From a virus, in IMG/VR virus record IMGVR_UViG_3300042922_000928, positions 1 to 20,151 of that record: 20,151 nucleotides of DNA; one strand, 5' to 3'. Each line of letters starts with the position of its first letter. Position 1 is the first letter of the stretch. The translations under genes and the position numbers were made by a program. The notes beneath the pieces are model-generated. The model had not been told where the DNA came from. It saw nothing but the letters and a program-made list of their open reading frames with translations, and did no database searches. Positions 460-19,885 of this stretch are shown here, piece by piece.

Positions 460-660
460 GTGAAAAATAGGTTAAAAGAAATTAGGATGAAAGAGTATAT
501 GATGAATCAAATAGAATTTGCTAAGATATTGCAAATCAGCAATACTACTTATAGCAATATTGAAAATAACAATGTACAAGGCAATATAAGTACTATATTA
601 AAAATTGCTAAATTATTAAATAAGCCTGTAGAAACAATTTGGTTCCTAGAAGATGAATAG
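460..660 (+). CDS. XRE-family helix-turn-helix regulator
   Basis: Small 66-residue DNA-binding protein that is essentially one HTH_3/XRE domain of the Cro/CI type. Residues about 17-38 (NQIEFAKILQISNTTYSNIE) form the helix-turn-helix and the remainder makes the helical bundle. It is the first gene of the plus-strand replication module, so it probably controls that module or lysogeny; a palindrome at 732-745 is a candidate operator. The start is GTG at 460, giving the normal N-terminus of the family. The ribosome binding site AAGGAG (441-446) is 13 bases away, but only 8 bases from ATG-GGG-TGA at 455-463, whose stop codon overlaps the GTG. Either this is a two-codon leader with translational coupling, or there is a local indel. 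The family call is firm; the target is inferred. Confidence 0.85.
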   Translation: MKNRLKEIRMKEYMMNQIEFAKILQISNTTYSNIENNNVQGNISTILKIAKLLNKPVETIWFLEDE

Positions 661-731
661 GAACTTTTTTCTTTACATATTTAATTCTTCTATAAGAAAT
701 TATTTTATATTGTAAAAAATATTTTTAAAAT

Positions 732-745
732 AGGAAACATTTCCT
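732..745. promoter_or_regulatory. Palindromic operator candidate upstream of replication genes
   Basis: AGGAAACATTTCCT is a perfect 6-bp inverted repeat with a 2-bp centre, sized for a dimeric HTH repressor. It lies 49 bp before the next start codon. A TATAAC-like -10 sits at 763-768, so bound protein would cover the -35 area. The gene immediately upstream encodes an XRE regulator, the likely ligand. This is inference from position and symmetry. Confidence 0.45.
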
Positions 746-793
746 TGTTTACATCATACATATATAACATAAAAGAAAAAGGAGTTGTTTGTT

Positions 794-1048
794 ATGCCAG
801 TAATAATAATTGGTACTGTAGAAGATGTTCAAACATATCAAGGGAAAAATGGATTTGGAGCCAATATCACAATGTCAACTTTAATTGATAAGAGAAGAAA
901 GTCTTTAACTTTTAACAACAGTGATAGAAGCATAGTAACGCAGTTTGAGGAAAACCTACAGCATGAAGTAACTGTTAAGATCTCACTCAGCCAAAGTAAT
1001 TTTGGTTTAAGACTTGGAGACATAATGGAAGTTGTACCAGCACCTTAA
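794..1048 (+). CDS. Small beta-rich replication-module protein (possible ssDNA-binding/OB-like)
   Basis: 84-residue protein with start ATG at 794, preceded by AAGGAG (the upstream in-frame TTG lies inside that ribosome binding site). I do not recognise a named family with certainty. What is visible is alternating hydrophobic strands, a central segment rich in Lys/Arg (DKRRKSL), a Gly-rich turn (GKNGFGA), and a C-terminal strand ending in RLGDIMEVVPAP. This suggests a small beta-barrel or OB-like fold. It sits between a regulator and an FtsK-type ATPase plus HUH initiator, the slot held in Tn916/ICEBs1 by the small YdcP/Orf22-23-type proteins and in filamentous phages by the ssDNA-binding protein. 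A role in binding single-stranded replication intermediates is plausible but inferred. Its stop codon is followed at once by a hairpin. Confidence 0.75.
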   Translation: MPVIIIGTVEDVQTYQGKNGFGANITMSTLIDKRRKSLTFNNSDRSIVTQFEENLQHEVTVKISLSQSNFGLRLGDIMEVVPAP

Positions 1049-1049
1049 T

Positions 1050-1067
1050 GGAGAGCTTTGCCTCTCC
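1050..1067 (+). promoter_or_regulatory. Intercistronic hairpin
   Basis: GGAGAG (1050-1055) pairs exactly with CTCTCC (1062-1067) and is followed by a pyrimidine run. It lies in the short gap between the small protein gene and the ATPase gene. It could attenuate transcription or protect the upstream mRNA, and it argues for the downstream start at 1099 rather than at the ATG at 1048, which has no good ribosome binding site. Confidence 0.45.
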
Positions 1068-1098
1068 TCTCTCTCTTATTAATTACATGGAGGATATC

Positions 1099-2337
1099 AT
1101 GAAAAGTTATGTGTTTAATAATGTAGATTCTTTTGAACAGAAATTAAATTATTCTCTTGCCACCGTAGGATCTATTATTATTCTTTATGGATTTACTACT
1201 TCTATAGCTTTATGCAATGTAGTAGTTTTACTTGGTGGAGTTATAGCTTACAAATATTTTTCAAATAATTCTTTTAGTAAATTTATAAAAGATAGCTTAT
1301 ATAGATTAGTTAAAAATAATGGATTTTATAAGGTAGAGGATAAAAAATTAATATATAGACCAGAGATATATTATAATTTTACAGATAAATATTTAAAAAT
1401 AAAAATAAGACTTGATGGAAGTCAATATAGAGATACTTATACACAATTAGAAAATCTTTTGGAAGACTTATTCACAATGGAGTGTATATCTAAAGAACAA
1501 TCCACAGGATTTATGGTTTATAAATTAGATAGAACAACTACAGAGAGATTAAATATAACTGAAATAAATAAACTTAAAGGTGACTTTATACCTATAAATA
1601 GTAAATTACAATGGAACTTTAGAAAGTGTCCTCATGCCCTTATAAGTGGTGTAACCGGCAAGGGTAAAACTTATTTCTTAGCATATCTAATAAAAACTTT
1701 TTTACTTCTAAATGCAGATATTAAAATACTTGACCCTAAAATATCTGACTTATCTTACTTAGAAAATTTATTTAATGATTGTGTTGCTAGCTCCTCTTCT
1801 CAAATAGCCAAAATTCTAAGAGAAACTATAGAGAAAATGAATTCTCGTTATGGGCAATTTAAAAAACTTTCTTCCTATAGGTTTGGAAAAGACTATAAAG
1901 ATTATGGATATAGACCTATAGTTATAATTTTTGATGAAATGGCTGCTTTTATGGCATCTGTAGATAAGAAATTGTCTAAAGAAGTTAATGACTACATGGC
2001 TGAAATAATAATGAAAGGTAGGCAAGCAGGCGTGTTTATGATTCTTACTACTCAAAGACCGGATGCTGACGTTATTAAAACCAATATACGTGACCAGTTA
2101 GGCCTTAGAATAGCTCTGGGAGAAATGTCGAAAACTGCATATAGCATGATATTTGGCTCTGATTTTAATTCTCTAGAGCTTAATAGTAATGCTCCTGGTA
2201 ATGGATATATCTTTATAGATGGTGTGAATACAAAGCCAGTTAAGTTTCAAAGTCCATTCTTTGAGCCTAATTACAATTTTGTTAAGGATTTAATCAAGAC
2301 TACCAAAGACAACGAAAATTTTGTGATAACAAAATAA
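1099..2337 (+). CDS. FtsK/SpoIIIE-type DNA translocase (TcpA/Orf21-like)
   Basis: 412-residue P-loop ATPase of the FtsK/SpoIIIE/HerA group, resembling the coupling-protein-like ATPase of Tn916 (Orf21) and ICEBs1 (YdcQ). Start ATG at 1099 follows GGAGG with a 5-base gap; an in-frame ATG at 1048 would add 17 residues but overlaps a hairpin. Visible parts: a hydrophobic membrane segment near residues 20-50; Walker A GVTGKGKT at 184-191; Walker B strand PIVIIFDE with the acidic pair at about 279-280; and the characteristic downstream block with GRQAG, LTTQRPDA and RDQLGLRIALG. It lacks the long N-terminal membrane domain and gamma domain of host FtsK. Expected to pump DNA at the membrane, next to a rolling-circle initiator. 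Whether it serves transfer, partition or replication is not shown by the sequence. Confidence 0.88.
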   Translation: MKSYVFNNVDSFEQKLNYSLATVGSIIILYGFTTSIALCNVVVLLGGVIAYKYFSNNSFSKFIKDSLYRLVKNNGFYKVEDKKLIYRPEIYYNFTDKYLKIKIRLDGSQYRDTYTQLENLLEDLFTMECISKEQSTGFMVYKLDRTTTERLNITEINKLKGDFIPINSKLQWNFRKCPHALISGVTGKGKTYFLAYLIKTFLLLNADIKILDPKISDLSYLENLFNDCVASSSSQIAKILRETIEKMNSRYGQFKKLSSYRFGKDYKDYGYRPIVIIFDEMAAFMASVDKKLSKEVNDYMAEIIMKGRQAGVFMILTTQRPDADVIKTNIRDQLGLRIALGEMSKTAYSMIFGSDFNSLELNSNAPGNGYIFIDGVNTKPVKFQSPFFEPNYNFVKDLIKTTKDNENFVITK

Positions 2338-2364
2338 TGGAATGATTCCGTTGTCTTTGGTAGT
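2299..2364. repeat. 16-bp perfect inverted repeat across the ATPase stop codon
   Basis: ACTACCAAAGACAACG (2299-2314) is perfectly complementary to CGTTGTCTTTGGTAGT (2349-2364) with a 34-base spacer. The left arm is inside the ATPase gene and the right arm is after its stop codon. There is no T-tract. A long perfect dyad directly between an FtsK-type ATPase gene and an HUH initiator gene is where Tn916 and ICEBs1 keep their oriT, so it may be part of an origin recognised by the Rep protein; an mRNA hairpin is the alternative. Confidence 0.65.
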
Positions 2365-2390
2365 AGTTCTTATATATCTCGATACTTATA
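2365..2390 (+). other. Candidate double-strand origin/nick site
   Basis: TTCTTATATATCTCGATA (2367-2384) resembles the nick region of pC194/pUB110-type rolling-circle origins, whose core is close to CTTATCTTGATA with cleavage between G and A. Here the equivalent step would be CTCG^ATA at about 2381/2382. It begins just after the 16-bp inverted repeat and lies about 80 bases before the start of the matching Rep_1 gene. GATACTTA recurs at 2381-2388 and 2429-2436, and a short imperfect hairpin follows at about 2386-2404. The assignment rests on similarity recalled from the plasmid family and on position. Confidence 0.45.
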
Positions 2391-2459
2391 CAAACAAGTG
2401 TAATAATGGCTTAACCGTGGTACTTTGAGATACTTAAAATTGTTTAGGGGGCCATAACC

Positions 2460-3530
2460 ATGGATTTTACAAATGAAACTCTGATGGAAATGAATAAGAG
2501 AAAAATAAATTATAATAACAAATATGCTAACTGGTATATTGAAATGAGCAAAGAGTTAAAAACTCCTTTACAAGCATATTCAGAAATGTTATTTAGAAAA
2601 TCAAAGCGAATTAGAAATTGTCTAAACATATGGACTTGGGATGTTTATAAAAACAATAAATTAATGGACTTACAGAAAGTTAATCGCTGTATGAATAATA
2701 GATTCTGTCCTAATTGCCGCAAATGGGATTTAGCAGGAGCAATACACAATTTAAAAAATCCCTTTAACAAACTATTACTTGAAGGCTATAACCCCTATTT
2801 AGTCACATTAACAATACCAAATATTCACGGGCCAGAATTACGAAATACTATAGAAAAGATGAACAAAGCCTTTAAGAAACTATTTAAAGCATTAAACTAT
2901 TCTCTTAATAAAACTACTAAAGGATTCGACAATAGGCTAATTGAAGTTGATGCAGCTCTTAAGGTTTTAGAAATAACCTACAATTTTACTGCAGACACAT
3001 ACCACCCTCATTTTCACTGTTTATTTTTCTCCCAAGACTATGACCAAAGTCTTTTTCTTAAAACCATGCCTGGGGAATACAGCAATAAAAGAAAAAGTTA
3101 TAATTTCTACTCCCTCATGGATGTGCAAATCATGAAGATATGGACTTTAGCTTATACTGGCCAAAGAATGACCTTAAAAAACTATGATAATTTAAATTTA
3201 GAAGATTTATATTTATGCGATATAAGAGAAATGGATTCTTCCGGTATTGTTGAGGTTCTAAAGTACACATTTAAAGATACAGATATTCCAACCTATGAGG
3301 TATTTAAAACTATCGAGATGGCTATTGAGCGAAAAAGGATAAGACAGGGTTATGGTCTTCTTTATAACTTAAAGCTTGAAGGAGATACTGATGGTGAAAA
3401 ACTTTCACTTGAAGAATTCCTTTCTGAACCTGAGGATCCTGAAGAACTCATTATTTATGAAATTAAACAGCTAGTTAGTAATTATAAAGATTATAGAAAG
3501 ATATCTAGATTTAAAGGTGAAGAAATTTAA
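2460..3530 (+). CDS. rep: Rolling-circle replication initiator, Rep_1 family
   Basis: 356-residue HUH endonuclease of the Rep_1 (pC194/pUB110) family. It nicks one strand at the double-strand origin, stays linked through a tyrosine, and starts rolling-circle replication. Visible motifs: a cysteine cluster C77-x5-C83-P-x-C86, typical of the family; motif LVTLTIPN, the family's LTLTVPN-like strand; the metal-binding HPHFH at 182-186; and the catalytic tyrosine in EVLKYTFK (Y269). Start ATG at 2460 follows AGGGGG. The C-terminus is acidic and extends past the catalytic domain. The gene directly follows the ATPase gene and a candidate nick site, so the module looks self-contained. Rep_1 proteins are normal for small plasmids; finding one beside siphophage structural genes suggests plasmid-like maintenance. 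Family confidence is high. Confidence 0.92.
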   Translation: MDFTNETLMEMNKRKINYNNKYANWYIEMSKELKTPLQAYSEMLFRKSKRIRNCLNIWTWDVYKNNKLMDLQKVNRCMNNRFCPNCRKWDLAGAIHNLKNPFNKLLLEGYNPYLVTLTIPNIHGPELRNTIEKMNKAFKKLFKALNYSLNKTTKGFDNRLIEVDAALKVLEITYNFTADTYHPHFHCLFFSQDYDQSLFLKTMPGEYSNKRKSYNFYSLMDVQIMKIWTLAYTGQRMTLKNYDNLNLEDLYLCDIREMDSSGIVEVLKYTFKDTDIPTYEVFKTIEMAIERKRIRQGYGLLYNLKLEGDTDGEKLSLEEFLSEPEDPEELIIYEIKQLVSNYKDYRKISRFKGEEI

Positions 3531-3563: not shown

Positions 3564-4349
3564 TTATTTCTTTACTCTAACATATTGATTTACATAAGCT
3601 TGTCTTTTTTCCTTTGTAAATATAGGATTAGAAACTTTACTTACCCATTCATCATTATCTTTTATTGTACTCATTTTGAAGCCTAAGAAATTTTCTAGCT
3701 GCTCTTTAGTTATATCTACATAATAAGTTTCTGATTCATTAACAACATCTATGTGTATTTGATTAACATTACTATAATTTCGTATAATCCTAAATGGATC
3801 TTCCATAAGTACTTTATTAATTTTATCTCCAGTTTCAAAATATTGAACATCTTTTTCTACATTCTTAGAATATTTATATGTAACTGTAATTTTATTTTCT
3901 TCTACAACTGCTGATTTTAAATAAGTACCATTGATTTTCATTTTTATATCTTCTGTAATGTCACCCTGCTTAGATTCCACTGATGTATATTGAACTGATG
4001 AATTGGTGTTATTATTTTCATTATTAGATGCATCATTTTGCTTAGCTTTATTTTCTGATGTAGTATTTTGTTGTGTATCTAATGTTTTTTCTGAAGAAGG
4101 AAGTACAGCAATTCCAATTATAAGAACTATAATTCCAACTACTAGCATTATTAATGACTCTTTTTTACGTGTCTTAATTGCAGTAATTCCATGAAATATT
4201 ATAAATGGTATTGCTATTGATATTAAAAGTGTTCCAACTCCTTTATACCCATTTATAAGTGATAATAAAGAAAGTATGTAGTAAATTGACGCAATTATCA
4301 TTTTCCATTTATTACCTGACCTGAATCCTGGTATGTATTTATTTTGCAT
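3564..4349 (-). CDS. Membrane protein with extracytoplasmic domain (moron-like, unknown)
   Basis: 261-residue protein I do not recognise. The N-terminal third holds three hydrophobic segments at about residues 16-35, 38-58 and 64-83. A low-complexity Asn/Ser/Gln-rich linker follows (about 90-120), and then a roughly 140-residue soluble domain with several Tyr/Lys-rich strands. The likely topology places the soluble domain outside the membrane. Start ATG at 4349 follows AAAGGGG. It has its own promoter (4384-4412, minus) and is divergent from the HEPN gene and convergent with Rep, so it is neither in the late operon nor in the replication operon. That is the pattern of a lysogenic-conversion gene; superinfection exclusion at the cell envelope is one possibility, but nothing in the sequence proves it. 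Confidence 0.75.
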   Translation of the reverse strand: MQNKYIPGFRSGNKWKMIIASIYYILSLLSLINGYKGVGTLLISIAIPFIIFHGITAIKTRKKESLIMLVVGIIVLIIGIAVLPSSEKTLDTQQNTTSENKAKQNDASNNENNNTNSSVQYTSVESKQGDITEDIKMKINGTYLKSAVVEENKITVTYKYSKNVEKDVQYFETGDKINKVLMEDPFRIIRNYSNVNQIHIDVVNESETYYVDITKEQLENFLGFKMSTIKDNDEWVSKVSNPIFTKEKRQAYVNQYVRVKK

Positions 4350-4403: not shown

Positions 4404-4412
4404 TATTGACAA
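4384..4412 (-). promoter_or_regulatory. Sigma-A-type promoter for the membrane-protein gene
   Basis: Read on the minus strand, TTGTCA (4412-4407) and TACAAT (4389-4384) are separated by exactly 17 bases, close to the sigma-A consensus. The predicted start site is near 4377, about 28 bases before the start codon at 4349. Confidence 0.55.
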
Positions 4413-4437
4413 CAAATTAATACATTCATGGTATAAT
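4406..4437 (+). promoter_or_regulatory. Extended -10 promoter for the HEPN gene
   Basis: TGGTATAAT (4429-4437) is a consensus extended -10. A perfect TTGACA lies at 4406-4411 but 20 bases away, more than the usual 17, so the extended -10 probably carries activity. The hexamer overlaps the -35 of the divergent minus-strand promoter, so the two promoters would compete or be co-regulated. Confidence 0.55.
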
Positions 4438-4472
4438 AATCTAAAATTTATATTTATAGATTGGAGATACAT

Positions 4473-5378
4473 ATGATTAATAAATTTTATACGGGTATTT
4501 GTTTTAATGATTTAGACATATTTGAGCCTTATGAATTCAATTTAAAACTAAAAAATGGTATAGTATTTAAATTTATGGAGTGCTATTATACTTATGAATA
4601 TACTCAAGAAGATAGATATTTAGATGTCCATTATTATTCTTTAGATAATAATCTTAATACAGCAAATTTAAAAATCAATTACTCATCTTATATCCTTTCT
4701 TATATCTTTTGCACCCCAATAATAGGAGAAGTTAGTCAGCATATATCGTCTAAAACAATTGATAAAATTGATTTATCTGAAACAAAACCTTATACACAAA
4801 AAATACAAAAACTTAATACATTAGAAAATAAAATAAACAACATAAATAAGGACAAAGACTTATTTAATCTTTCTATCAAACATTTTTATAATGGATTTAA
4901 ATATTTTTGTATGGATAGCTTTTTTGAGGAAGCCTTTATTAATTTTTATAAAATAATAGAAATTATATCTAAAGCTTTTTTTGATTTAAAGGAAATACAA
5001 CTGAAAAAATTCAAATCATCTGAAGTAAAAAGTTTTTTAAAAAAATTTATAAAGGATAAAACATTTATAACTTATTCTGACAATAAGATTGATTCTATTT
5101 CAGGAAAATTTAAAAAATTTATATGTAATGAGATAAATGATACATATTCAAAAATATCTTTATTTTGCAATTATAATAAACTTAAATTTAATGAAAATGA
5201 TTTAGGTAAAATTGTAAGTATCCGAAATGATATTGTTCATGGAAATGTAGTTAATGCTAATGATCTTGAAAAATATTTAAATAAATTATTTTTGCTTAGT
5301 CGAGAATTTATAGCTCATTATTTTTTTCATGAAAAATACAAAAACATAGAAATCAATTCATATGTAGGTATAGAGTAA
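4473..5378 (+). CDS. HEPN-domain protein (ApeA-like C-terminus), putative defence/immunity gene
   Basis: 301-residue soluble protein. The start is ATG at 4473 with TTGGAGAT ahead of it; an in-frame TTG at 4461 lies in the ribosome binding site. The C-terminal half is helical and carries SIRNDIVHGN, an RX4H motif (R251 to H256) of HEPN ribonuclease domains, in the context seen in ApeA-type HEPN proteins, where the RN-x-IVHG block is followed by a helix with Tyr/Phe-rich ends. The N-terminal half (about 1-110) is strand-rich, as in the ApeA sensor region, but I cannot name it. Many HEPN proteins cut RNA after phage sensing and halt growth. Its own promoter, very low GC and position between replication and lysis genes fit a moron guarding the lysogen against other phages. 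HEPN assignment is good; anti-phage role is inferred. Confidence 0.72.
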   Translation: MINKFYTGICFNDLDIFEPYEFNLKLKNGIVFKFMECYYTYEYTQEDRYLDVHYYSLDNNLNTANLKINYSSYILSYIFCTPIIGEVSQHISSKTIDKIDLSETKPYTQKIQKLNTLENKINNINKDKDLFNLSIKHFYNGFKYFCMDSFFEEAFINFYKIIEIISKAFFDLKEIQLKKFKSSEVKSFLKKFIKDKTFITYSDNKIDSISGKFKKFICNEINDTYSKISLFCNYNKLKFNENDLGKIVSIRNDIVHGNVVNANDLEKYLNKLFLLSREFIAHYFFHEKYKNIEINSYVGIE

Positions 5379-5384
5379 AAACAA

Positions 5385-5418
5385 AGCCTAGCGTCAGCTT
5401 TTACTCTGACTCTAGGCT
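5385..5418. terminator. Terminator between the HEPN gene and the lysis genes
   Basis: AGCCTAG-C-GTCAG (5385-5397) pairs with CTGAC-T-CTAGGCT (5406-5418), with one mismatch. Read on the minus strand it is followed by TTTGTTTTT, so it best ends the leftward late/lysis transcript; it also sits just after the plus-strand HEPN stop. AGAGTAAAA (5372-5380) and TTTTACTCT (5399-5407) can form a competing stem. Confidence 0.7.
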
Positions 5419-5423
5419 CAAAA

Positions 5424-5750
5424 CTATTTCTGTACCACTTCTTTAGCTACATCAGCAATTATAGTCTTAGCTGCAAAATCAACTAAATTTTTAATGGTAT
5501 TTCTACTTAAATGATCACCAAACTTATTATCAAGTTTATCTAATAGATTTGTTAATTTATCCTCTGCAAAATCTTCTGGATGTAATTTTGCTAAACTTTC
5601 AACAAGTACTTTTGCTTCATTATAATAAGTGTCTCCTAGTTTTTTCTTAACAGTGCCTAAAAGAAGCTTTCCTTTTCTATATGCCATTGGAACAACAAAT
5701 CCTATTACTGCTCCTAATCCACCATAAATATAATTAATGTAATTTTCCAT
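5424..5750 (-). CDS. Single-TM lysis-region protein, LLH-holin-like
   Basis: 108-residue protein with one N-terminal membrane segment (about residues 6-24), then a basic stretch (RKGKLLLGTVKKK) and an amphipathic helical tail. The order of TM anchor, helical A/K/E-rich body and an internal DKL-x-NLLDKL-type repeat resembles the LLH family of phage holins, but similarity is loose. Start ATG at 5750 has a strong GGAGG 9 bases upstream. It is the last gene of the leftward transcript, separated from the endolysin gene by a terminator, so it may be expressed at a different level. It may be a second holin, an antiholin, or an unrelated anchored protein. Confidence 0.6.
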   Translation of the reverse strand: MENYINYIYGGLGAVIGFVVPMAYRKGKLLLGTVKKKLGDTYYNEAKVLVESLAKLHPEDFAEDKLTNLLDKLDNKFGDHLSRNTIKNLVDFAAKTIIADVAKEVVQK

Positions 5751-5764
5751 ATTAAAATACCTCC

Positions 5765-5786
5765 AATTTTTTATATTAAAAAAGAC
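5765..5786. repeat. 22-bp boundary repeat, copy 1
   Basis: The 22 bases here are identical to 7045-7066. In both places they include the T-tract side of a minus-strand terminator and lie just upstream of the next gene's GGAGG-type ribosome binding site. The read-through is an AT palindrome-like segment containing TTTTTTAATATAAAAAA. Confidence 0.7.
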
Positions 5787-5808
5787 AACCCTATAAAAGA
5801 GTTATCTT
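5774..5808 (-). terminator. Terminator after the endolysin gene
   Basis: Read on the minus strand, AAGATAACTCT (5808-5798) pairs with AGGGTTGTCTT (5792-5782), 11 pairs including G-T pairs, around a 5-base loop and followed by a run of Ts. The stem begins within the endolysin stop codon. It would reduce transcription into the downstream 108-residue gene. Confidence 0.7.
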
Positions 5809-6623
5809 AATAATGCCAGTAATGTATTTATTCCAACTACCCCATCAATATTTAATCCTTTCAATTGCTGAAATGTTATAACTTTACTTTCAACAAATCT
5901 ATTGTAGTAATATTTATCAGGTGTTTTTATTCCTAGAAGCTGACAAATTATATCCGTATAGGCGTCATTATGATACCCTTCATATTTAGCTGCAGGCAAT
6001 TTCTTAAATGCTGTCAAAGAAAGTGTTCCAAGTTTCCCATCTATATCAAGTTTTCCAATACCTAAACCATTGATAAGCCATTGTACTTTTTTAACCTTAT
6101 ACATGTTATAGCCGCCCCAGTAACCAGTGTTAGACGGTGCTGGTTGTGGTGAACTTGTAATAGTGGTACTTTGTCCCCCTAGAATCATATTTCTAATATC
6201 ATTTATTGGATAGTTATTACCAGGGCAGTCTGTTGGATAAGGAACTTCTTTATGTCCTATAACATTTTTAATTCCATATTTATTCTTAATATAAATTCCT
6301 AGTTCTTCAATAGATTTCTTTTGAGCCTCTGGCATACTCTCTGAATTATATGAACCTTCTGCACATATAGCAATGGAATGATTATTTACTCCTGGGCAAT
6401 GTGCTCCTGTGGCTCCCTCCGGCCTACCTGTATAAATACTTCCATCTTTCCTCACAAAATAGTGATATCCTATTCCAGCCCAGCCATTTTGTTTATGCCA
6501 ACTATCTATATCATATACAGAACAATTTTTTGCCTCTGCATGATGCAATAGTATTAAATCCGGTCTATTTCCATATACCAGTTGGTTATTTCTAAACTGT
6601 ATATTTGAATTAATAATGTTCAT
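5802..6623 (-). CDS. Endolysin: N-acetylmuramoyl-L-alanine amidase (Amidase_2/PGRP) with C-terminal peptidoglycan-binding region
   Basis: 273-residue lytic enzyme that cuts the amide bond between N-acetylmuramic acid and L-alanine in peptidoglycan at the end of the phage cycle. The N-terminal domain (about 18-145) is Amidase_2: LLHHAEA with zinc ligand H27, a central GIGYHYFVRKDG, GHKEVP (H124) and DCPG (C133), so the H-H-C zinc set is complete. A Ser/Thr/Pro-rich linker (about 155-167) leads to a C-terminal region with two DIDG/NIDG-x-x-G-type turns (KLDIDGKLG and LNIDGVVG), typical of PG_binding_1-like domains. Start ATG at 6623 with AAGGAG upstream; the TTG at 6632 is in the ribosome binding site. 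No signal peptide, so it needs a holin, and the recognisable holin gene lies directly upstream. High confidence. Confidence 0.92.
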   Translation of the reverse strand: MNIINSNIQFRNNQLVYGNRPDLILLHHAEAKNCSVYDIDSWHKQNGWAGIGYHYFVRKDGSIYTGRPEGATGAHCPGVNNHSIAICAEGSYNSESMPEAQKKSIEELGIYIKNKYGIKNVIGHKEVPYPTDCPGNNYPINDIRNMILGGQSTTITSSPQPAPSNTGYWGGYNMYKVKKVQWLINGLGIGKLDIDGKLGTLSLTAFKKLPAAKYEGYHNDAYTDIICQLLGIKTPDKYYYNRFVESKVITFQQLKGLNIDGVVGINTLLALLR

Positions 6624-6640
6624 TTTTATCAATCTCCTTA

Positions 6641-7030
6641 TTATTTCTTTTTTAATTGTTCTAAAGCATTTAATAATTTATCCGGTAATTTAACACCACA
6701 CTTTCCACAATTCTCTAGAATAGAAATTCCCTCATTTGCTATGTAAAAGTAGCAAACAAGTGAACGAAAAACCCATATATTATTGTTTATAAGCCTGTCT
6801 AAAAGTACACCAATTATAATTACTATTAAAATAGATGTCTTTTTAGCTATTCCTTTATAGCCAATTTTGCTATTTAGTTTATTTTGATATGCTGCACCTA
6901 TAAGGCCAGTTACATAATCTATACCCATAAACCAAAACAGCACTGTTAATGGAGTATCCCACCCGCCAAAAATATAATTTAAAACACCCCCAACCCCTGC
7001 CACTATGCCATTAAGTATTCGTCTTTTCAT
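6641..7030 (-). CDS. Phage holin (toxin-secretion/phage-lysis holin family)
   Basis: 129-residue small membrane protein that forms the inner-membrane lesion releasing the endolysin. It starts at ATG 7030, preceded by AAGGAGG; the longer frame to 7081 runs through a terminator. It begins with a basic MKRR and has about three hydrophobic segments (residues 5-20, 26-45, 57-75), the signature-like middle FWFMGIDYVTGLIGAAYQNKLNS-type block with IDYVTG, and an ISILEN-x-x-KCG segment near the C-terminus followed by LPDKLLNALEQLKKK. These features match the phage_holin_4 (Cph1/TcdE-type) family widespread in Clostridium phages. It is followed after 17 bases by the endolysin gene, the usual pairing. 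Confidence 0.88.
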   Translation of the reverse strand: MKRRILNGIVAGVGGVLNYIFGGWDTPLTVLFWFMGIDYVTGLIGAAYQNKLNSKIGYKGIAKKTSILIVIIIGVLLDRLINNNIWVFRSLVCYFYIANEGISILENCGKCGVKLPDKLLNALEQLKKK

Positions 7031-7044
7031 TGATTGCCTCCTTG

Positions 7045-7066
7045 AATTTTTTATATTAAAAAAGAC
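7045..7066. repeat. 22-bp boundary repeat, copy 2
   Basis: Identical in all 22 bases to 5765-5786. It again joins the T-tract of a terminator to the ribosome binding site region of the next gene (here the holin). The two copies lie 1280 bp apart and flank the holin-endolysin pair. Confidence 0.7.
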
Positions 7067-7085
7067 CTGGAATAAATCCAAGTCT
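7056..7085 (-). terminator. Terminator upstream of the holin gene
   Basis: On the minus strand, AGACTTGGA (7085-7077) pairs with TCCAGGTCT (7071-7063) around a 5-base loop, with one G-T pair, followed by six Ts. It lies after the 58-residue gene and before the holin, so it separates structural from lysis expression or sets their ratio. Confidence 0.75.
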
Positions 7086-10300: not shown

Positions 10301-10921
10301 ATTTTTTAAATGTATATTTAATATACTTCCATTAGCAATCCCAGTACTCTGATACTGACCTCCTGGAGTCCATGTAGAACCATTCCAATAATTCCATTTT
10401 CCATCATCTAATGTTAAATAAATATAGTTGTGGTTAGCTGTAGTATCTGCTTGTAATGCTGCTAAATTACTATAAACAGCTCTAGGAGAAGCATCTGCTA
10501 AATTAACTTTATTTAAAGCCTCCAGCAATGCATTAAATTCACTTGTCGAAGCAATCACCTGATCAATGAGAGAATCTTTAATTGTTATATAAAAAATAGA
10601 TGAATTTATAAGGTTTTGATCTGATTCATATATTTTCAATTGACATGTAGTAACTCCATGTACAGCCACTATTTGATCAGTTAGTTCTACAAGAATTTGT
10701 CCTCTGCTGACATTTTCTATGTCAACATTGTTAAAAACAAGTGCTCCATCTGGTTTTATCATATATATTCTTACAGTATATCCGGTAAGGTCCATTGGAA
10801 GAGAATTTGATTGTAAATAAAACCTTATCTTCCTACCTGTATCTCCTTGATTTGCACTTATTGTCTGTATAAGATCCTTATCAATATCAAAAATAATCTC
10901 TTTAGGTTCCATTAATCCCAC
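7355..10921 (-). CDS. BppU-type baseplate/tail fibre protein with C-terminal SGNH hydrolase domain
   Basis: 1188-residue tail-tip protein. The N-terminal about 130 residues look like the BppU N-terminal domain (DIDKDLIQTISANQGD, PMDLTGYTVRIYMIKPDG, strand-rich) that docks on the baseplate. A short helical link and a WNYWNGSTWTPGG-type segment follow. The middle is built of two different tandem repeats, about 123 residues twice (residues 334-579) and about 120 residues twice (about 578-817). The last about 260 residues are an SGNH/GDSL hydrolase: block I IYIGDSIVNG (serine near 933), block III LLTNDI (near 1040) and block V NNVHQNG (His near 1167), where the usual Asp three before His is Asn. 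Likely it binds and de-acylates surface glycans during adsorption. Start GTG at 10921 lies 7 bases after GAGGAGGG; an ATG follows at 10912. It lies downstream of Tal as expected for a receptor-binding protein. Confidence 0.85.
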   Translation of the reverse strand: MGLMEPKEIIFDIDKDLIQTISANQGDTGRKIRFYLQSNSLPMDLTGYTVRIYMIKPDGALVFNNVDIENVSRGQILVELTDQIVAVHGVTTCQLKIYESDQNLINSSIFYITIKDSLIDQVIASTSEFNALLEALNKVNLADASPRAVYSNLAALQADTTANHNYIYLTLDDGKWNYWNGSTWTPGGQYQSTGIANGSILNIHLKNPWGQIIQKSGLSINFKTKLITASGLFIVYNNNHTQVQNASVTIPDDAISGTSNVYRVYADGNDSFKLKITSAYSNVGNNEYTLALIYNGTVIEGINRGNIMIYDGAGNTVNYLQDKSIRTAMLNYSYLNAYILSGRIDVNTTAYTITVTAGTIIATGEERYTFLGTDTVISYSTSPNPTYAKYLYFKSSSKTIEWSESLASSQTEDYAFLGAIWNSRILGAFTLQQWTVNSISNGGFGNPVAHTDMGMTYLSAFIMQGGIDINTTAKTISIQAGTICTLKGYFGVTATVLSYASSSNPTYAKYIYVNLNNNTIEWNDIFISSDRNKALLGILWNGRIWSAPTLQVWTVNGVKNGGFGNMLSNNEITFDNTAYKGYGYIGYTSNNAIEIDTVNKKFRVTSLMNIIYHHTAANIATQDWQTYSEPSIWYLKTVYIDLTDNTIKVSVNSNITNPHIILFHFTGYANVINSTIFGPIPNITGVTVNGSKTVENRPIYIGQLGYGNCNDLIEIDLVNSRIRLNSSLWVMSNGLNVNIAAHDWNPFVTGTNVNYVLVCYVDLATNKICIANHSVTLNNAIVLFRFQGPTATYKSHYSSSSFSVLINGASVLFSAGNAVSSSATFPWGTDKFIIPETLYLVAGLEYGINPQNFNFNKDYSTDLLDFEIPLPTRTEQFAKYGKINVPFSGDFLTKVVGKYRLDNTNALYKDILLKVKDKSEITPTSKKVIYIGDSIVNGNLPKTLKYWLGKFGITATMLGTINNEIDYGYGIQPPLLVEKGEGRGGWRLTDFAETTRYTEGTSDVLHSPFWNSSTSQLDFQYYLDTNSLEVPDIAIIALLTNDITGYHNKTGAIDETMDDLYNTIIERDLKTLVDMLLAVNPNMKIAINPPMSNGLDGTFTQNANKCAEREQLVFEDNAEYPNVYCLGSYLSSAWTSAPTYKYTSNPAPTQLDPNNKTMKTNFINNVHQNGMAQLQNALWVASWIANII
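8470..9184 (-). repeat. Tandem ~120-residue repeat pair inside the fibre gene (type 2)
   Basis: Two units offset by 360 bp encode related strand-rich modules. Shared positions include Y-I-G-x-x-x-x-N-x-x-IEID-x-VN-x-x-x-R near the start, AAHDW/IATQDW in the middle, a YIDL/YVDL-x-TNK strand, and I-I/V-LF-x-F-x-G toward the end. Borders are approximate. Duplication followed by divergence is the likely origin. Confidence 0.6.
9185..9922 (-). repeat. Tandem 123-residue repeat pair inside the fibre gene (type 1)
   Basis: Units 9554-9922 and 9185-9553 are offset by 369 bp. Both encode YL-[NS]-A-[YF]-I with GRIDVNTTA/GGIDINTTA, then a V-I/L-SY-[SA]-[TS] strand, NPTYAKY, TIEW, ALLG/AFLG-x-[IL]-WN-x-RI and QQWTVN/QVWTVN ending in NGGFGN. 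The regular spacing and shared Gly/Asn turns suggest stacked trimeric fibre modules. Confidence 0.7.
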
Positions 10922-10923
10922 AC

Positions 10924-11151
10924 CTATTCCCTCCTCTTCAATTCTTTTTTCTCTACATCTACATAGAATTGGCTTTTATTAAACATCAAATTATTCTGAA
11001 TGTTATTATCATCTTCCAAAACAATATAATCCCATATAAGACTTAGGTCATCTTTATTGGAACTAAAAAAGGACATATCCTGCTCTCCACTACAGAAAGC
11101 TTTGATATCTCCTGTTGATTTAGAATAAAATATAGTTATTTTTTTATCCAT
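10924..11151 (-). CDS. Small baseplate-region protein, unknown
   Basis: 75-residue, acidic, soluble protein starting MDKKITIFYSKSTGDIK at ATG 11151, with AAGGAGG 5 bases upstream. I recognise no family. It lies between Tal and the BppU-type fibre gene and ends 2 bases before the fibre's GTG, so it is translated in the same operon and may be coupled to it. Small proteins in this slot of Firmicutes siphophages are often baseplate accessory parts or chaperones. The N-terminal strand pattern (ITIFYS, IKAFCSG) suggests a small beta fold. The coding call is good; the role is unknown. Confidence 0.75.
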   Translation of the reverse strand: MDKKITIFYSKSTGDIKAFCSGEQDMSFFSSNKDDLSLIWDYIVLEDDNNIQNNLMFNKSQFYVDVEKKELKRRE

Positions 11152-11160
11152 AGAACCTCC

Positions 11161-12981
11161 TTAAGCAGTTACTACATATGTTATCTGAAAGTCAATCTTT
11201 GGGCTATTTGAAGGATTAGCTATCTCAGTAGCTATACAAGTACCCTTTATCTTTATACTTGCATTTTCATAATCTGTTGATTCAGAATCTACTATTACTT
11301 CATATGTCTTTAAAACAAATCCTTCTGCTAAATTTTGAAGTGAAGCTGCTTGGGCTACCGCCGTAAATTGTCTATTCTTAAATTCATCTGGGAGCTGCAC
11401 AATTATATCATTTTGGCTATCAGGAATAATTGCAACTCCAACATACATCATTGAATGATAAGCATAACTAGCATCATTTATAACTTTATTTGCTCCTGAT
11501 CCTGAAAGCTCTGTTTTGCTTCCATCTGAATGAGTAACAATTATCTTATTATCTCCAAGGCTAATGCTTAATGTTCCATCAGAACTTTCTATTGTAGCAG
11601 TTTTTAATATTTCTGTATTCAATTCACCAGTGTCAACAAACTTTGCTACAATATGACCATCAGCTGTTATGGCAACTTCAAAAGGTCCATTTACACCATT
11701 AGAAGAATATCCAAGGCCAGAAAGATTAAATCTCCATACATGAACTGCAGTATTTACATCCTCAGTATCCATTATAAAAAGCTCTTGCGGATGATCTTTG
11801 GGATATAAAAGAATGTTTCCTCCACTATTACCTGTTATTTTAGATGTGGCACTGTCAATTGCATTACTTAAAAAACTTTTTGTTGGAAATTCTTTAACTG
11901 CATCTTTTACAGCAGTATTTATAGAGTTATTTACAGCACTTGTATATTTAGCTTTTACATCTCCAATTTCAACAGATTCATTTTTCTCTGTTATAACATT
12001 AAATTCAATCTTTATAACTTTAGCAGTTGCAGTAATATTTAATCTTTCATTATCAACCAAAACAGTGTCCCCGAGGCCTACTCTTTCAAGGTTAGCAACT
12101 CCTTTATATTCTTCCGTCTGCCATAATGGCTCAAATTTAACTGTCATACTTACTTTAGCTTTGTCTTTATCTCCAGTATCAAAATACTTCTCTGCTGCAG
12201 TTCTAAGAGTATCAACGCTAGTAACTGTTTCATCACTGGCAAAATCTACAGATATAATTCTCTTATACTGATATTTATTAGCCTCAGAACTATAAACATA
12301 TTTTTCTGGAAGATAAACTTCTGTGCCATCTTCAAGTTTTTTAAAGGGATAAATACCAGTTATAACTCCCTCTATATTGAATTTTGCATTAAGGCCAGTT
12401 AGATTTTTTCTCCATGATATCTTTACTCCATTATCATTTCCACGTCTGCTCTTTAAGCTGATATTAAAGTTATCTCTTTCAATTTCTCCGCCCCATACAT
12501 CTAATAATGAACCTTCAACTCCAGCTATAGCTTGCAATGGATTAAGCTTTTTTAAGGCTGTACTAGAAAGATTTTCTTTATCACTTGTGAAATTAAATTG
12601 TGTAGGATATGCTAAGTTCTCTTCAATTTGCTCCATGGCATAAATAGCAGATTGATTTTCAACCTCTAAAGATTCAATAAAGTTTCCTGCAAGATCATAA
12701 GTTATATGCTGAGCATAAATAGCTATAGAATCTGATTCCTGGTCTTTTTCATAATCATATATTCTGAATAACTGCGGCTCCTGAGTATCATTTGATTTAA
12801 CTTTAATAATGAGTTCATAATCAATGATATTAAATAAACTTCCTGAAGCATCATATTTAATTTTCAGTTCGCATACTCCATTAAGCTCCTCAGTTACCAT
12901 TACAGATATTGTATCAGCCATAATTCCAAGTCCATTATGAGTAAAGTCTGTTTCATCTTTTTTATAAAGAATTGGGAACAA
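11161..12981 (-). CDS. Tail-associated protein Tal (prophage endopeptidase tail family)
   Basis: 606-residue baseplate hub protein. The N-terminal about 370 residues match the Prophage_tail/gp27-like fold: opening MFPILYKKDETDFTHNGLG, LFRIYDYEKD, a VSMTVKFEPLW-type strand and the conserved VGLGDTVLVDNERL followed by TATAKVIKIEFNVITEKNESVEIGD. A helical link (about 350-380) leads to a second, strand-rich region with SSDGTLSISLGDNKIIVTHSDG and a terminal domain of unknown role. It caps the tail tube below Dit and opens at DNA release; some relatives carry a peptidoglycan hydrolase, but I see no clear catalytic motif here. Start TTG at 12981 is supported by GGAGGTGG a few bases upstream; it is the first codon after the Dit stop. 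Confidence 0.85.
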   Translation of the reverse strand: MFPILYKKDETDFTHNGLGIMADTISVMVTEELNGVCELKIKYDASGSLFNIIDYELIIKVKSNDTQEPQLFRIYDYEKDQESDSIAIYAQHITYDLAGNFIESLEVENQSAIYAMEQIEENLAYPTQFNFTSDKENLSSTALKKLNPLQAIAGVEGSLLDVWGGEIERDNFNISLKSRRGNDNGVKISWRKNLTGLNAKFNIEGVITGIYPFKKLEDGTEVYLPEKYVYSSEANKYQYKRIISVDFASDETVTSVDTLRTAAEKYFDTGDKDKAKVSMTVKFEPLWQTEEYKGVANLERVGLGDTVLVDNERLNITATAKVIKIEFNVITEKNESVEIGDVKAKYTSAVNNSINTAVKDAVKEFPTKSFLSNAIDSATSKITGNSGGNILLYPKDHPQELFIMDTEDVNTAVHVWRFNLSGLGYSSNGVNGPFEVAITADGHIVAKFVDTGELNTEILKTATIESSDGTLSISLGDNKIIVTHSDGSKTELSGSGANKVINDASYAYHSMMYVGVAIIPDSQNDIIVQLPDEFKNRQFTAVAQAASLQNLAEGFVLKTYEVIVDSESTDYENASIKIKGTCIATEIANPSNSPKIDFQITYVVTA

Positions 12982-13668
12982 TTATAACCACCTCCAGCGT
13001 GGTATAAGTTCTAATTTTGTTATTCCTCCATCAAAACTTATATTGTTTTCCCCTGAAGATAAAATTGGGAAAACTCCAACCATTTTATCATTCCTGGAAG
13101 AGATTATACCGTTAACTGTCTTATAAGCATTCATCATGTCGCGATCCACCTCTACAAAATCATCAATTGTAACCTGAAAAGATTGACCGTTAATATACAC
13201 CTTTCCAGTTCCTGCACCATATATCTTTATATAAGGTTCAGCCTCATAACCTTGATTAAAAATAGTAGTAGCTCCACTGATATTTATAGTTACATCTTCT
13301 TCATAATCAAATGGATCTAAAAGAAAATCTACTATGAACTCCCCGTATTCTTCTACTTCATTGGTAGCTGTTTCAATGGTCACATTTTTTATTTTGTTAT
13401 ATATGTCTGGATCATCACTAAACTTTAAAATCTTTGCATTTAAAAGTACATTTTTAAATACTCTAAACACACTCTTAAAGGGTACATCCTCAAGAAAATT
13501 AAACTTAACTTTCAAAGGCTTGTTTTTATATCCAAACTTCTTAGTCAGTGATCCATGCCTTCCTCTAATCTCTATAATCTCAACATCTCTCTCAGCTGTA
13601 GGAATTTCAGACCTTTCCTTAACACTTAAATAATACTCAGAAACAGCAATTCCATCTAAATACAACAT
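12982..13668 (-). CDS. Distal tail protein (Dit, SPP1 gp19.1-like)
   Basis: 228-residue protein forming the hexameric ring that joins tail tube and baseplate. It starts at ATG 13668, overlapping the tape-measure stop by one base (TAATG), with GGGGGA upstream; the longer frame to 13683 lies inside the tape-measure gene. The N-terminal half is the family type: YLDGIAVSEYYLSVKERSEIPTAERD-like opening, RGRHGSLTKKFGYKNK, and FLLDPFDYEED at the end of the first domain. The C-terminal half (from about residue 130) is the carbohydrate-module-like galectin domain with EAEPYIKIYGAGTGKVYINGQ. It ends in a Trp/Arg-rich IPRWRWL. Position between tape measure and Tal fits exactly. Confidence 0.88.
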   Translation of the reverse strand: MLYLDGIAVSEYYLSVKERSEIPTAERDVEIIEIRGRHGSLTKKFGYKNKPLKVKFNFLEDVPFKSVFRVFKNVLLNAKILKFSDDPDIYNKIKNVTIETATNEVEEYGEFIVDFLLDPFDYEEDVTINISGATTIFNQGYEAEPYIKIYGAGTGKVYINGQSFQVTIDDFVEVDRDMMNAYKTVNGIISSRNDKMVGVFPILSSGENNISFDGGITKLELIPRWRWL

Positions 13669-16600
13669 TAAGCATTCCCCCAAGCAGCCTTTTGTCTTCT
13701 ATCTGTTTTTCCCATACCTTCATTTACAGTGTCGATTAATCTATCCATATCAGCATCATTTCTTACGGTAGCATTAATTACTATGTTGTTATTATTAGTG
13801 ACACTTTGTGCAAGTTTTGACTCTGCCATTTGTGGAAGACTTGAAAGCATTCTATTTGCTACAGCATCAGCAAAAGGGTCCATAGCATGACCAACAAGTG
13901 GAAGTGCTGCTTCTTTTCCAGCTTCACCAATACCAATTACATTGGCTTGATCAAAAATACCTCCATTTGCATACCAATCAACTCCCAGGTGTGGAACGGA
14001 TGGAGGCTTAAGACTAAATTCCCCTGTCAATTTGAAATGGGGCAATGGCGGTAAATTAACTTTAGGCAAACTAAGCTTTATACCAGTAAAGAATCCCTTT
14101 ATTGTATTTATGATATTTGATACAGTATTCTTTGCAGCCTCAATAGGTCCAGTAATAGCAGACTTAATGCCATTCCATACAGAAGAAGTTACTGCTCTTA
14201 TACCATTCCATACTCCAGAAACCACAGACATTACACTATTTACTGCACTAGAAACACCGGATTTTATGGTATTCCATACAGATGATATTACACTTGTAAT
14301 ACTATTCCACACGGAAGAAGTAACTCCACTTATAACATTCCAAATTACAGTTATTATTGATAGTACTGTACTTATTGCCCCTTGAACATTAGATTTTATA
14401 GAATTCCATACCCCTGAAATAAATCCTGAAATAGCACTCCATACTGCTGAGGTTACAGCACTTATAGAATTCCATACCGCCGATATAAATGAACTTACAG
14501 CATTAAAAATTGGAATTACAAAGGCTGCTATAGCATTCCATATAGTAGAAAGTGCTGTTGTAATGGTGTTCCAAACTGTAATTGCTACATTTTTAATTCC
14601 TTCCCATAAAAATGAAAAAAACTGAGCTATGGGTTCCCATATAGGCCTTGTTAAAGCTACAATAATATTCCATGCTGCTATAAGAATTGAAGTTATAAAG
14701 AGCCATGCTCCTTGAAATATAGCTTTCACAAGTTCCCACATGAATTGAAAGAATATAACAATACCATTCCATATAGTTGATGCAACCATTACTATTCCAT
14801 TCCATATACCACTCAAAAACCCTGTTATACCTGTCCAAATACTAATTGCTCCACTTACTATTCCGTTCCAAATACCGGTAAAAAATAAGGCTAATCCACT
14901 AAAAATAGACTGAGCATAGGATGAAATACTCTGCCATAGAGTCCCAATCCAGGTTGTAAAAGAAGTCCATATACCTTGAAGCCACGTGACAATAGTTCCC
15001 CAGTTTTTAATTAAAAGTACAATTCCAGCAATAGCCGCTGCCACAATTGCTACTATAGCTATAATAGGTAACAGTGACGTATCCAGTGTAAAAATTGCAA
15101 TGGCTAGTGCTGCTATAATTGGAGTCATAATGACAAATACAGCCATAAGCCCTGAGAAAATTTCTATAAAAAGTCTAACCGGTTCTGGTAAACTTGCAAA
15201 TCCTTTTGCTATAGTACCAATAAGTTCAATTAAAGGTGTACGTGCCTCCATAAGATCCATTCCTATAGGTTTAAGAACATCCTGTAATTCTCTTAAGGAT
15301 TGTTGCCATTCTTCAGTCAATGATCTTTGAGACATCTGATCTGCTTTTCCTTTAACATCATCTATTGCATTACCAGTAGTAGCAAAGGCTGCAACAGCTT
15401 TATCTCCTAAATCTTCATATTGTGTTCCCATGGCCACAACACCCATATTATATTTTTTAGTATTGTCGCTGGTACCAGCTATATCTTTATTTATAGATTG
15501 AAATACCTGTGCCGCTGTAGCTTTTCCATTTGAATACTGCTTGAATAAATTTTGAGTATTCTTTGAATACTGTCCTATGTTTTTTCCAAGAGAGCCATCC
15601 CTTAGCCTTATTCCAAACTCTTTTACTGCATCAGCTGCCTTATCTGTATTAAATGCTCCTGAAACCATTCCTTGATTAATTATATTAAGCATATCCTTAG
15701 CATTGAATCCAGCTTGTGAAAATTGTGGAGAATATTCATTCAAGGTATCCAGAAAATCATCTGAATAATTGAGTCCACTTTGAAAACCTGCAGCTATTAT
15801 ATCTAAAGAATCATCAGCAGACATGCCAAAATTTTTCATTATCTGTGAAGCCGCTCTTACATTTTCATTTACATCAGTATCTGTATGCTTGCCTATACCA
15901 ATAATCTTATTTGTTACACCTTCAAGCTGAACATCATTCAAATCACCCATATTGGTTTTAACGGTTTGAACGGCCTTAGAAGCTGACTCCATAGAATCTG
16001 TTACTCCATGTTCAAACACTCTGCTTACAATCTCTTGAGTCTTTTCAGCTTCCTGAGAAGTCATTCCAAAATTATTTTGTATATCTTGCTGACTATCAAC
16101 AATTTGAGAAGAACCTTCAACAGCAGACTTTCCAAGTTCAATTATCTTTTCTCCCACACCAGAAAGAATTTCAGCTGCTCTCATGAAATTTCCTGCAGTA
16201 ATTTTCTTTCCTATGCTATCAAGAGTTTCAGCTGCATCCGCTCCACTGCCTTTAATATTGCCAAGTTCATTATCAAGATTAGCAACAGCTGTTTTTGCTT
16301 CATTAAGCTTTGCAGCCATTTTATTAGCTTCAGTAGAATTTTGACCATATTCTTTTTCTACTAAATTTAATTGCCTCTCTAAATTAGAAATTACCTGTTT
16401 TGCCAGGTCCATTTGTCTTTTAACATGTTCTTGTGCTGCGGCAAACTTTTCTGCTTCATCTGCAGTATCTCTCATTTTAGCCTTTTGAAGTTCATATTCA
16501 CTTGAAAGTTTTCTACTGGAAGATTCCAGGTTTGATTGTTCATTTTGAAGCTGAGAAAGGGCCTGTTTTCTCTTTATAGATTCACTGGTTGCCTCTGATT

Positions 16601-18524: not shown

Positions 18525-18918
18525 ATTTAATTGACCTGGTAAAATTAAATTCTATGGCATCAACAAAGGAATCTTCATTGCCCTTTTGTATGCTTCCTTT
18601 TGTAGAATCTACTAAAAAATATCCTTTACTCTCTAATATGCTTATGACATCAATTTGAATGCCGTCAAGGTCATCTACTCCCTCAGCATAAAATCTTACA
18701 AGTATATCCTGTATTAAAGTAAATTTCTTTTCCTCCGGTCTTCTCATTCCGCCTGTCTCAAAAATAATATACTTATATATGCTACCCAAATCATTTTTAA
18801 GCTCATCTTCACTTACATTGTCTTGAAATACTTTTATTTTAAAATTGCTTTCAAGATTAGTTATTAAATCATTATCTAGTCTCTTTAATCTTTCCTTTGT
18901 TTTCTCATTCACTAACAT
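18514..18918 (-). CDS. Tail terminator/neck protein (probable)
   Basis: 134-residue protein starting at ATG 18918 (LVNEKTKERLKR), preceded by GGAGGG; a longer frame to 18996 would overlap the previous gene heavily. It has an N-terminal helix, then IYKYIIFETGGMRRPEEKKFTL, ILVRFYAEGVDDLDGIQIDVISILESKGY and a final strand, consistent with small alpha/beta tail-terminator (minor capsid 3-like) folds. In this region of siphophage genomes the slots are connector, closure, gp10-like and terminator; the gp10-like gene is the neighbour, so terminator is the best guess. Exact subfamily not proven. Confidence 0.6.
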   Translation of the reverse strand: MLVNEKTKERLKRLDNDLITNLESNFKIKVFQDNVSEDELKNDLGSIYKYIIFETGGMRRPEEKKFTLIQDILVRFYAEGVDDLDGIQIDVISILESKGYFLVDSTKGSIQKGNEDSFVDAIEFNFTRSIKYVC

Positions 18919-19258
18919 CGCCCTCCACTTTATGCAAATAAAAATAGAGATATTTCCTATCTCTATCAGCCTTAATAATGTTATAGTCAGCATCATTAAT
19001 TTTTATAATTAAATTATCCTTATTTATATTCTTTAATAAGGGCGGCATTGGAGTTTTAATCTTAATATCAAGAGTGGACCCCATAGCTCCAAATTGCAGA
19101 TAGTCATTTTCCCTAACAGATAATTCCCTATAAAAAAGAGAACCGGATGAAACAAAAGTTTTTCCAATTCTCTTGCGGGATTCTGAACGTAAAGTTTCAT
19201 ATTTACCATATTGAAGTATGCCATCATTAAAAGTCTCACGAATCTGTTCCAGTGCCAC
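18905..19258 (-). CDS. Head closure/head-tail adaptor protein
   Basis: 117-residue beta-rich protein. It contains FNDGILQYGKYETLRSESRKRIGKTFVSSGSLFYRELSVRENDYLQFGAMGSTLDIKIKTP-like strands, ending in NIIKADRDRKYLYFYLHKVE, which resembles SPP1 gp16-type head closure proteins with their R-x-x-D-x-x-x-F/Y-LYL ending. GTG at 19258 is 9 bases after AAGGAG and is my preferred start; ATG at 19267 touches the ribosome binding site and ATG at 19282 lies deeper in the connector gene. It overlaps the preceding connector gene, a sign of coupled translation. The role follows from fold pattern and order. Confidence 0.72.
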   Translation of the reverse strand: MALEQIRETFNDGILQYGKYETLRSESRKRIGKTFVSSGSLFYRELSVRENDYLQFGAMGSTLDIKIKTPMPPLLKNINKDNLIIKINDADYNIIKADRDRKYLYFYLHKVEGDVSE

Positions 19259-19556
19259 TACTCTCATCTCCTTCAGCAACATATTGCTTAAGAGCTGTAT
19301 CTAGAATTAACCTGCTAAGTTCTTTATGGTAGTTAATCTCAAAATCATCTAAGGCATTATTCCAATCATATCTGCATCTCTCAAGTAAAAGTTCTCTTTC
19401 AGTTGAACCATCTTCAAATGTAAACTCTATATCACAAAGCTCATTAAAATATTTCTGACCTCTAACAATCATTTTCATTAATTGTGAATTTGATTCATCC
19501 CAGGTGATTTGAAGTTTATCTTTTAAATCAGTTAAAAGACTATCATTCAAAGCCAT
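19236..19556 (-). CDS. Head-tail connector protein (gp6-like)
   Basis: 106-residue mostly helical protein (MALNDSLLTDLKDKLQITWDESNSQL opening, MKMIVRGQKYFNELCDIEF, and a long C-terminal helix with RLILDTALKQYVAEG), fitting the gp6/DNA-packaging connector family that forms a ring below the portal. Start ATG at 19556 overlaps the upstream stop by one base (TAATG). It lies two genes downstream of the capsid protein and one upstream of the closure gene, the normal place. Confidence 0.78.
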   Translation of the reverse strand: MALNDSLLTDLKDKLQITWDESNSQLMKMIVRGQKYFNELCDIEFTFEDGSTERELLLERCRYDWNNALDDFEINYHKELSRLILDTALKQYVAEGDESSGTGTDS

Positions 19557-19885
19557 TACTTAGCTAGCTCCTCTTCATTTGTAGTCTCTTTATTCTCAGT
19601 GACTACTTCTTTTTTCACTTCCTCTTTAGATGCATTTTCCTTGCTTTGTGAAGTATCCTCTACTTTTTCATCTTTACTTACTTCCTCTGCAGGCTTATCT
19701 TCAACCTTTTCTTCTTTTATTTCCTCACCTAAAAAAGCTATTTTATATTTATTTCTCTTTGACCTCAAGAAAGTAACTCTTTTAGGATCTGCTTCAAACC
19801 CCTCTGATGGATATACATCTCCTTTATTGTATACAAGATTTTCATGATTTTTTTCAAGAAAAGTATTTATAACTTTATATGCCAT
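19556..19885 (-). CDS. Post-capsid small protein with acidic/lysine-rich tail
   Basis: 109-residue protein with two parts. Residues 1-50 (AYKVINTFLEKNHENLVYNKGDVYPSEGF..., shown here only in outline) match the short N-terminal domain common in small proteins encoded next to capsid genes of Firmicutes phages: a K-V-I strand, an F-x-x-x-x-N-x-x-x-Y-x-x-GD-x-YP turn, then a helix. Residues 51-109 are a low-complexity Glu/Lys run with no hydrophobic core, probably disordered. Start ATG at 19885 has GGAGG 8 bases upstream; the TTG at 19900 is inside that ribosome binding site. Function is not known; capsid-associated or assembly roles are guesses from position. Confidence 0.75.
   Translation of the reverse strand: MAYKVINTFLEKNHENLVYNKGDVYPSEGFEADPKRVTFLRSKRNKYKIAFLGEEIKEEKVEDKPAEEVSKDEKVEDTSQSKENASKEEVKKEVVTENKETTNEEELAK

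Follow-up and report, generated by a model that had tools for sequence, protein, structure and literature searches.

A rare clostridial phage gene for a probable HEPN-domain protein is a candidate single-protein anti-phage effector

What does a 301-codon gene with a HEPN-type catalytic motif do between the replication and lysis genes of a clostridial phage, and could it protect the host cell against other phages? The stretch of DNA analysed here (the window) comprises 20,151 bases and corresponds to a virus record that may be a fragment; the gene occupies positions 4473–5378 on its plus strand, from an ATG at 4473 to a stop codon ending at 5378, and encodes a protein of 301 aa. Under the open reading frame's own base composition, the chance of a stop-free run of 301 codons is approximately 1e-14, and this is a real gene. 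An in-frame TTG is present upstream at 4461 but is the less likely start, because a GGAG ribosome-binding site directly precedes the ATG at 4473. At 20.4%, the GC content of the HEPN gene is the lowest among the main genes measured, the others falling between 25 and 36%.

The HEPN gene is rare, with one relative in all the collections searched. This relative (P0002) is a protein of 303 aa that is 30–32% identical to the window protein over the full length (304 columns; BLASTP E = 9e-27), and is found in one Clostridiaceae genome and in an IMG/VR prophage from the same locus (L015). Credible relatives were present in one of 207 Clostridiaceae genomes, one of 391 genomes of the class and one of 398 genomes of the phylum, always the same genome. 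Weak matches were rejected as relatives in three instances, two being unrelated reading frames (G010 and G186) and the third a short broken frame (G465). Searches of phages and plasmids with either protein as the query (50,697 phage records for the window protein) gave no further relatives, viral contigs yielded none beyond the one already described, and none was found by a scan of genome contigs. Since a single relative is known, conservation here rests on one comparison. Identity between the two proteins is 34% in the N-terminal half and 30% in the C-terminal half; with conservation so similar in the two, the N-terminus probably contributes to function and is not a loose tail.

The relative is located at one end of a 33-kb prophage that has an integrase at the other end. 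The late genes of this prophage (terminase, portal, major head, tail, tape measure and Dit) are on the minus strand; like the HEPN gene in the window, the relative runs the other way, on the plus strand. Besides the HEPN gene, comparison of the window genes revealed only a 28%-identical stretch of the tape measure protein in common between the two phages. Because the relative resides in an otherwise unlike phage, the HEPN gene seems to pass from one unlike phage to another while keeping a comparable position and orientation. Three other genes of the relative's prophage were noted. A 244-aa reading frame (10526–11260, plus strand), in the same orientation as the HEPN relative, begins 24 bases past it and has no counterpart after the HEPN gene of the window. 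A 990-aa protein (13153–16125, minus strand) contains a SGGDYDGDIFQV stretch, which we take to be reminiscent of YonO/RdRP-type RNA polymerases, and a 348-aa protein (18826–19872, plus strand) has a start that presumably resembles DUF4062 proteins.

We examined the basis for a HEPN assignment. A direct read placed the motif R251-N-D-I-V-H256 at positions 5223–5240 (plus strand), exactly the residues given for it by the first-pass annotation. The protein contains three occurrences of RX4H, at R48, R251 and R277. When its sequence is shuffled, one or more RX4H turn up in 5.8% of cases (R[ND]xxxH in 1.0%); RX4H alone is weak evidence for HEPN. The occurrence at R251 is nonetheless more than chance, since R251, N252, H256 and the adjoining G257 are kept in the only relative, where the motif reads RNKLAHG, and the other two occurrences are lost. 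The sequence signatures described for HEPN domains are Rx4-6H with a polar residue after the R, and Ex3[KR] in helix 2 (PMC3710099). Both are present in the window protein and in the relative, the second as E163-I-I-S-K167 (4959–4973, plus strand), with the E and K identical in the relative.

The sole Pfam match of the window protein is to HEPN_RiboL-PSP (PF18735; E = 1e-4, residues 169–279), with a score of 22.7 bits that lies below the curated cut-off of 28.4 bits; the top Pfam match of the relative is to the same family (E = 0.01). Further tests were made because the window protein is compositionally biased, being rich in K, N, I and F, and because the protein of a neighbouring gene gives spurious Pfam matches at similar E-values. 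An independent HEPN profile was made from 15 clostridial HEPN proteins of the RiboL-PSP type; on it the window protein outscored 500 of 500 of its own shuffles, and the relative 499 of 500. Profile–profile comparison with this clostridial profile using hhalign gave E = 6e-5 and a probability of 65%, on the RN...HG block. The window protein gave no match to a PADLOC defence model with a meaningful E-value, and the relative had a single PADLOC match, to the HEPN portion of Csx1 (E = 0.0013). The HEPN domain proposed in the first-pass annotation is thus borne out by weak but concordant evidence: the Pfam match, a profile score that none of the 500 shuffles reached, and two signatures kept in the relative. 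On these sequence comparisons the HEPN fold class is well supported, and the window protein is very probably a HEPN protein.

The structure of the window protein was modelled twice with AlphaFold, from the single sequence and with the two-sequence alignment, both models being of low confidence (mean pLDDT 37–38). The model with a pLDDT of 37.8 contains helices at residues 129–146, 152–170, 241–255 and 262–283; in this low-confidence model E163 lies in helix 152–170 and R251 near the end of helix 241–255, a placement that agrees with the HEPN helix order described previously (PMC3710099). The N-terminal part is beta-rich in the low-confidence models, which suggest a protein of two parts: residues 1 to approximately 128, which are unrecognised, and residues approximately 129–301, which are predicted to be helical and HEPN-like. 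A PDB fold search with the second model gave no match, which is of little meaning because that model is of low confidence. There was also no match in a PDB sequence search.

The surroundings of the HEPN gene bear on how it might be expressed. To its right, Pfam and PHROGs identified the late genes on the minus strand: a small protein (5424–5750), an amidase (5802–6632) and a holin (6641–7081), which form the end of the late operon (5424–7081), and then fibre, tail, Dit, tape measure, major tail and neck proteins. On the other flank lies a module on the plus strand (460–3530; Pfam/PHROGs) that encodes an HTH protein, a small protein, an FtsK-like protein and a Rep_1 protein (2460–3530). Between this module and the HEPN gene is a divergent gene on the minus strand (3564–4349) for a membrane protein of 261 aa, with which the HEPN gene has its upstream intergenic region in common. 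The gene is therefore placed between replication and lysis genes, with Rep_1 on one side and the amidase and holin on the other, and stands alone in the sense that both of its neighbours are on the opposite strand, as the first-pass annotation had it. No other recognised defence genes were seen within the 20,151-base window.

A promoter of its own had also been claimed for the HEPN gene. A putative promoter was read directly at 4406–4437 (plus strand), consisting of TTGACA (4406–4411), a 20-nt spacer and the extended −10 element TGGTATAAT (4429–4437), which agrees with the claim as a consensus match only. A consensus promoter scan, which covered spacers of 16–18 nt only, misses this site with its 20-nt spacer, and the count of promoter-like sites that it found around the HEPN gene was no higher than in shuffles. 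The promoter-like sites of the divergent membrane gene and the HEPN gene are close together. Downstream, a bidirectional terminator-like hairpin at 5385–5418 separates the HEPN gene from the convergent late operon, with predicted folding energies of −20.4 kcal/mol (z −3.5) on the minus strand and −18.3 kcal/mol (z −4.6) on the plus strand.

The HTH-FtsK-Rep module is also present in two other clostridial phage contigs, L008 (5717–9092) and L009 (7241–10448). The Rep and FtsK proteins are 61–66% identical among the three, and the module adjoins lysis genes in each. The three contigs are otherwise unlike, L008 having a tail sheath, and, with respect to the late genes, the module of the window is oriented the other way round from those of the other two. 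With its Rep_1 protein of rolling-circle type, it resembles the replication and mobilisation modules of plasmids and integrative elements. The L008 and L009 contigs end at most approximately 220 bases from Rep. In neither is there a HEPN gene between the lysis genes and the module, so the HEPN gene and its membrane-protein neighbour look like an accessory insertion. The N-terminal ~100 aa of the membrane protein were found in 13 of 200 Clostridiaceae genomes, but the genome carrying the HEPN relative was not among these; as the two do not co-occur, the membrane gene is not supported as an obligate partner of the HEPN gene. The C-terminal half of the membrane protein resembles an SPbeta/phi3T phage protein (29% identity).

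The promoter-like site, the strand opposite to the late genes, the lowest GC content, and the occurrence of the relative in an unlike prophage at a comparable position by the end of the late operon together support the description of the gene as a moron, whose role is somewhat more likely than not an anti-phage one. The explanation that we prefer, which draws on analogy and has somewhat better than even support in our judgement, is that the gene encodes a prophage-carried, single-protein abortive-infection effector expressed during lysogeny. In the scheme that we infer, from fold and dimerisation through RNase activity, lysogenic expression and N-terminal sensing to the anti-phage outcome, the gene would be transcribed in lysogens from its own promoter and against the direction of the late genes. 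The C-terminal HEPN domain would pair into a dimer, in which R251 and H256, helped by N252 and E163, would make up the active site of a metal-independent RNase. Until it bound a molecule made by an invading phage, the N-terminal half would hold the protein silent, and RNA cleavage by the activated protein would then halt the cell before the invader multiplies.

Three other explanations were weighed against this one. The protein could be the toxin of a toxin–antitoxin or RNA–antitoxin pair that stabilises the phage or its plasmid-like Rep module. HEPN toxins are frequent in toxin–antitoxin pairs, an addiction system would benefit the adjoining Rep/FtsK module, and an RNA antitoxin is present for a prophage AbiF (PMC12373285). 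However, no nucleotidyltransferase or other small partner gene adjoins the HEPN gene, the divergent membrane gene and the HEPN relative are not found together, and the window contains no Rfam RNA at gathering score, with no AbiF-type RNA near the HEPN gene even at a relaxed threshold. We consider a toxin of this kind unlikely. That the protein is no active RNase at all, being either a degenerate or nucleotide-binding HEPN-like regulator or a helical protein that is not HEPN and matches through its composition, seems to us improbable: R, N, H and G and the ExxxK signature are kept at 30% overall identity where two chance RX4H occurrences are lost, and all 500 shuffles of equal composition were outscored. 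The low-confidence models, the sub-threshold Pfam score and the biased composition would speak for it. Least probable is a phage weapon against the host, an RNase that degrades host or competing mRNA or inactivates host tRNA in lytic growth, as might be read from the conserved RNase-type motif and the adjoining late operon, since the HEPN gene runs against the late genes with its own promoter-like site and a terminator-like hairpin between, and its absence from L008 and L009, which carry the same module, and from the 50,697 phage records argues that it is not a core lytic gene.

If the abortive-infection reading is true, a clostridial, sequence-unrelated counterpart with a new sensing half would join the few tested prophage HEPN effectors. 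This would support single genes that combine a new sensor with a HEPN RNase as a recurring prophage route to host protection, with the general picture of phage-borne defence unchanged.

Several known HEPN systems invite comparison. ApeA is a HEPN anti-phage protein with an ApeA-NTD1 domain (PMC3710099), and the window protein resembles it in having a beta-rich N-terminus, here in low-confidence models only, followed by a HEPN domain with RNxxxH. However, the clostridial ApeA proteins (L053 and L054) are approximately 480–520 aa long, with an N-terminal domain of approximately 270–300 aa, compared with 301 aa in total for the window protein. There is no Pfam match to ApeA_NTD1 or HEPN_Apea, and profile comparison with hhalign gave a probability of 0.6%; we therefore rejected membership of the ApeA family, and the 'ApeA-like' context suggested by the first-pass annotation does not hold. 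In PF18735, the match on the window protein spans the RX4H motif, whereas the clostridial PF18735 proteins checked are without its N-terminal half. A HEPN-MNT system was rejected on the length of the HEPN protein (301 aa) and on its neighbours, a membrane protein and a small late-operon protein. AbiF-Cd, encoded within the lysis module of a C. difficile prophage, is a HEPN-like toxin with R202 and H207 (PMC12373285), and the likeness extends to a clostridial-type prophage, a site adjoining lysis genes and a HEPN-like protein with RX4H. The window protein has no Pfam match to Abi_2, and membership of AbiF/Abi_2 was rejected for want of this domain, of an AbiF-type RNA and of sequence similarity.

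The Tha-1 and Tha-2 proteins of Staphylococcus aureus prophages are HEPN anti-phage proteins activated by phage tail proteins. Tha-1 has 301 aa, with an unrecognised N-terminus and a C-terminal HEPN domain whose RNase is activated by a tail protein of the incoming phage (PMC11087260). Within the cI operon, Tha is overlapped by an antisense gene, Ith, that encodes its inhibitor (PMC11087260). The HEPN gene, by contrast, lies outside a cI operon and next to the end of the late operon, has a promoter-like site of its own, and contains no Ith-like antisense reading frame, only frames of 29 and 32 codons. Similarity of the window protein to Tha-1 and Tha-2 was not significant by BLASTP, and the profile–profile probability was 0.3%; Tha-1 and Tha-2 have no detectable similarity to each other by BLASTP either. 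Membership of Tha by sequence was rejected for lack of a BLASTP or profile match and of an Ith-like antisense gene. In design, the likeness is that of a single prophage gene for approximately 300 aa with no recognisable N-terminal domain and a C-terminal HEPN domain, and Tha-1 has RNSIMHG where the window protein has RNDIVHG, both of the form RNxxxH(G). Analogy with Tha and AbiF makes an anti-phage effector role plausible. More tentatively, it is possible that the window protein and its relative represent a new family of prophage HEPN effectors, with two members so far, in which a new N-terminal domain would sense a phage component and which would be a clostridial functional counterpart of Tha with a different N-terminal domain. 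Of the known systems, Tha is the closest working analogue of the window HEPN protein, with prophage AbiF as a second.
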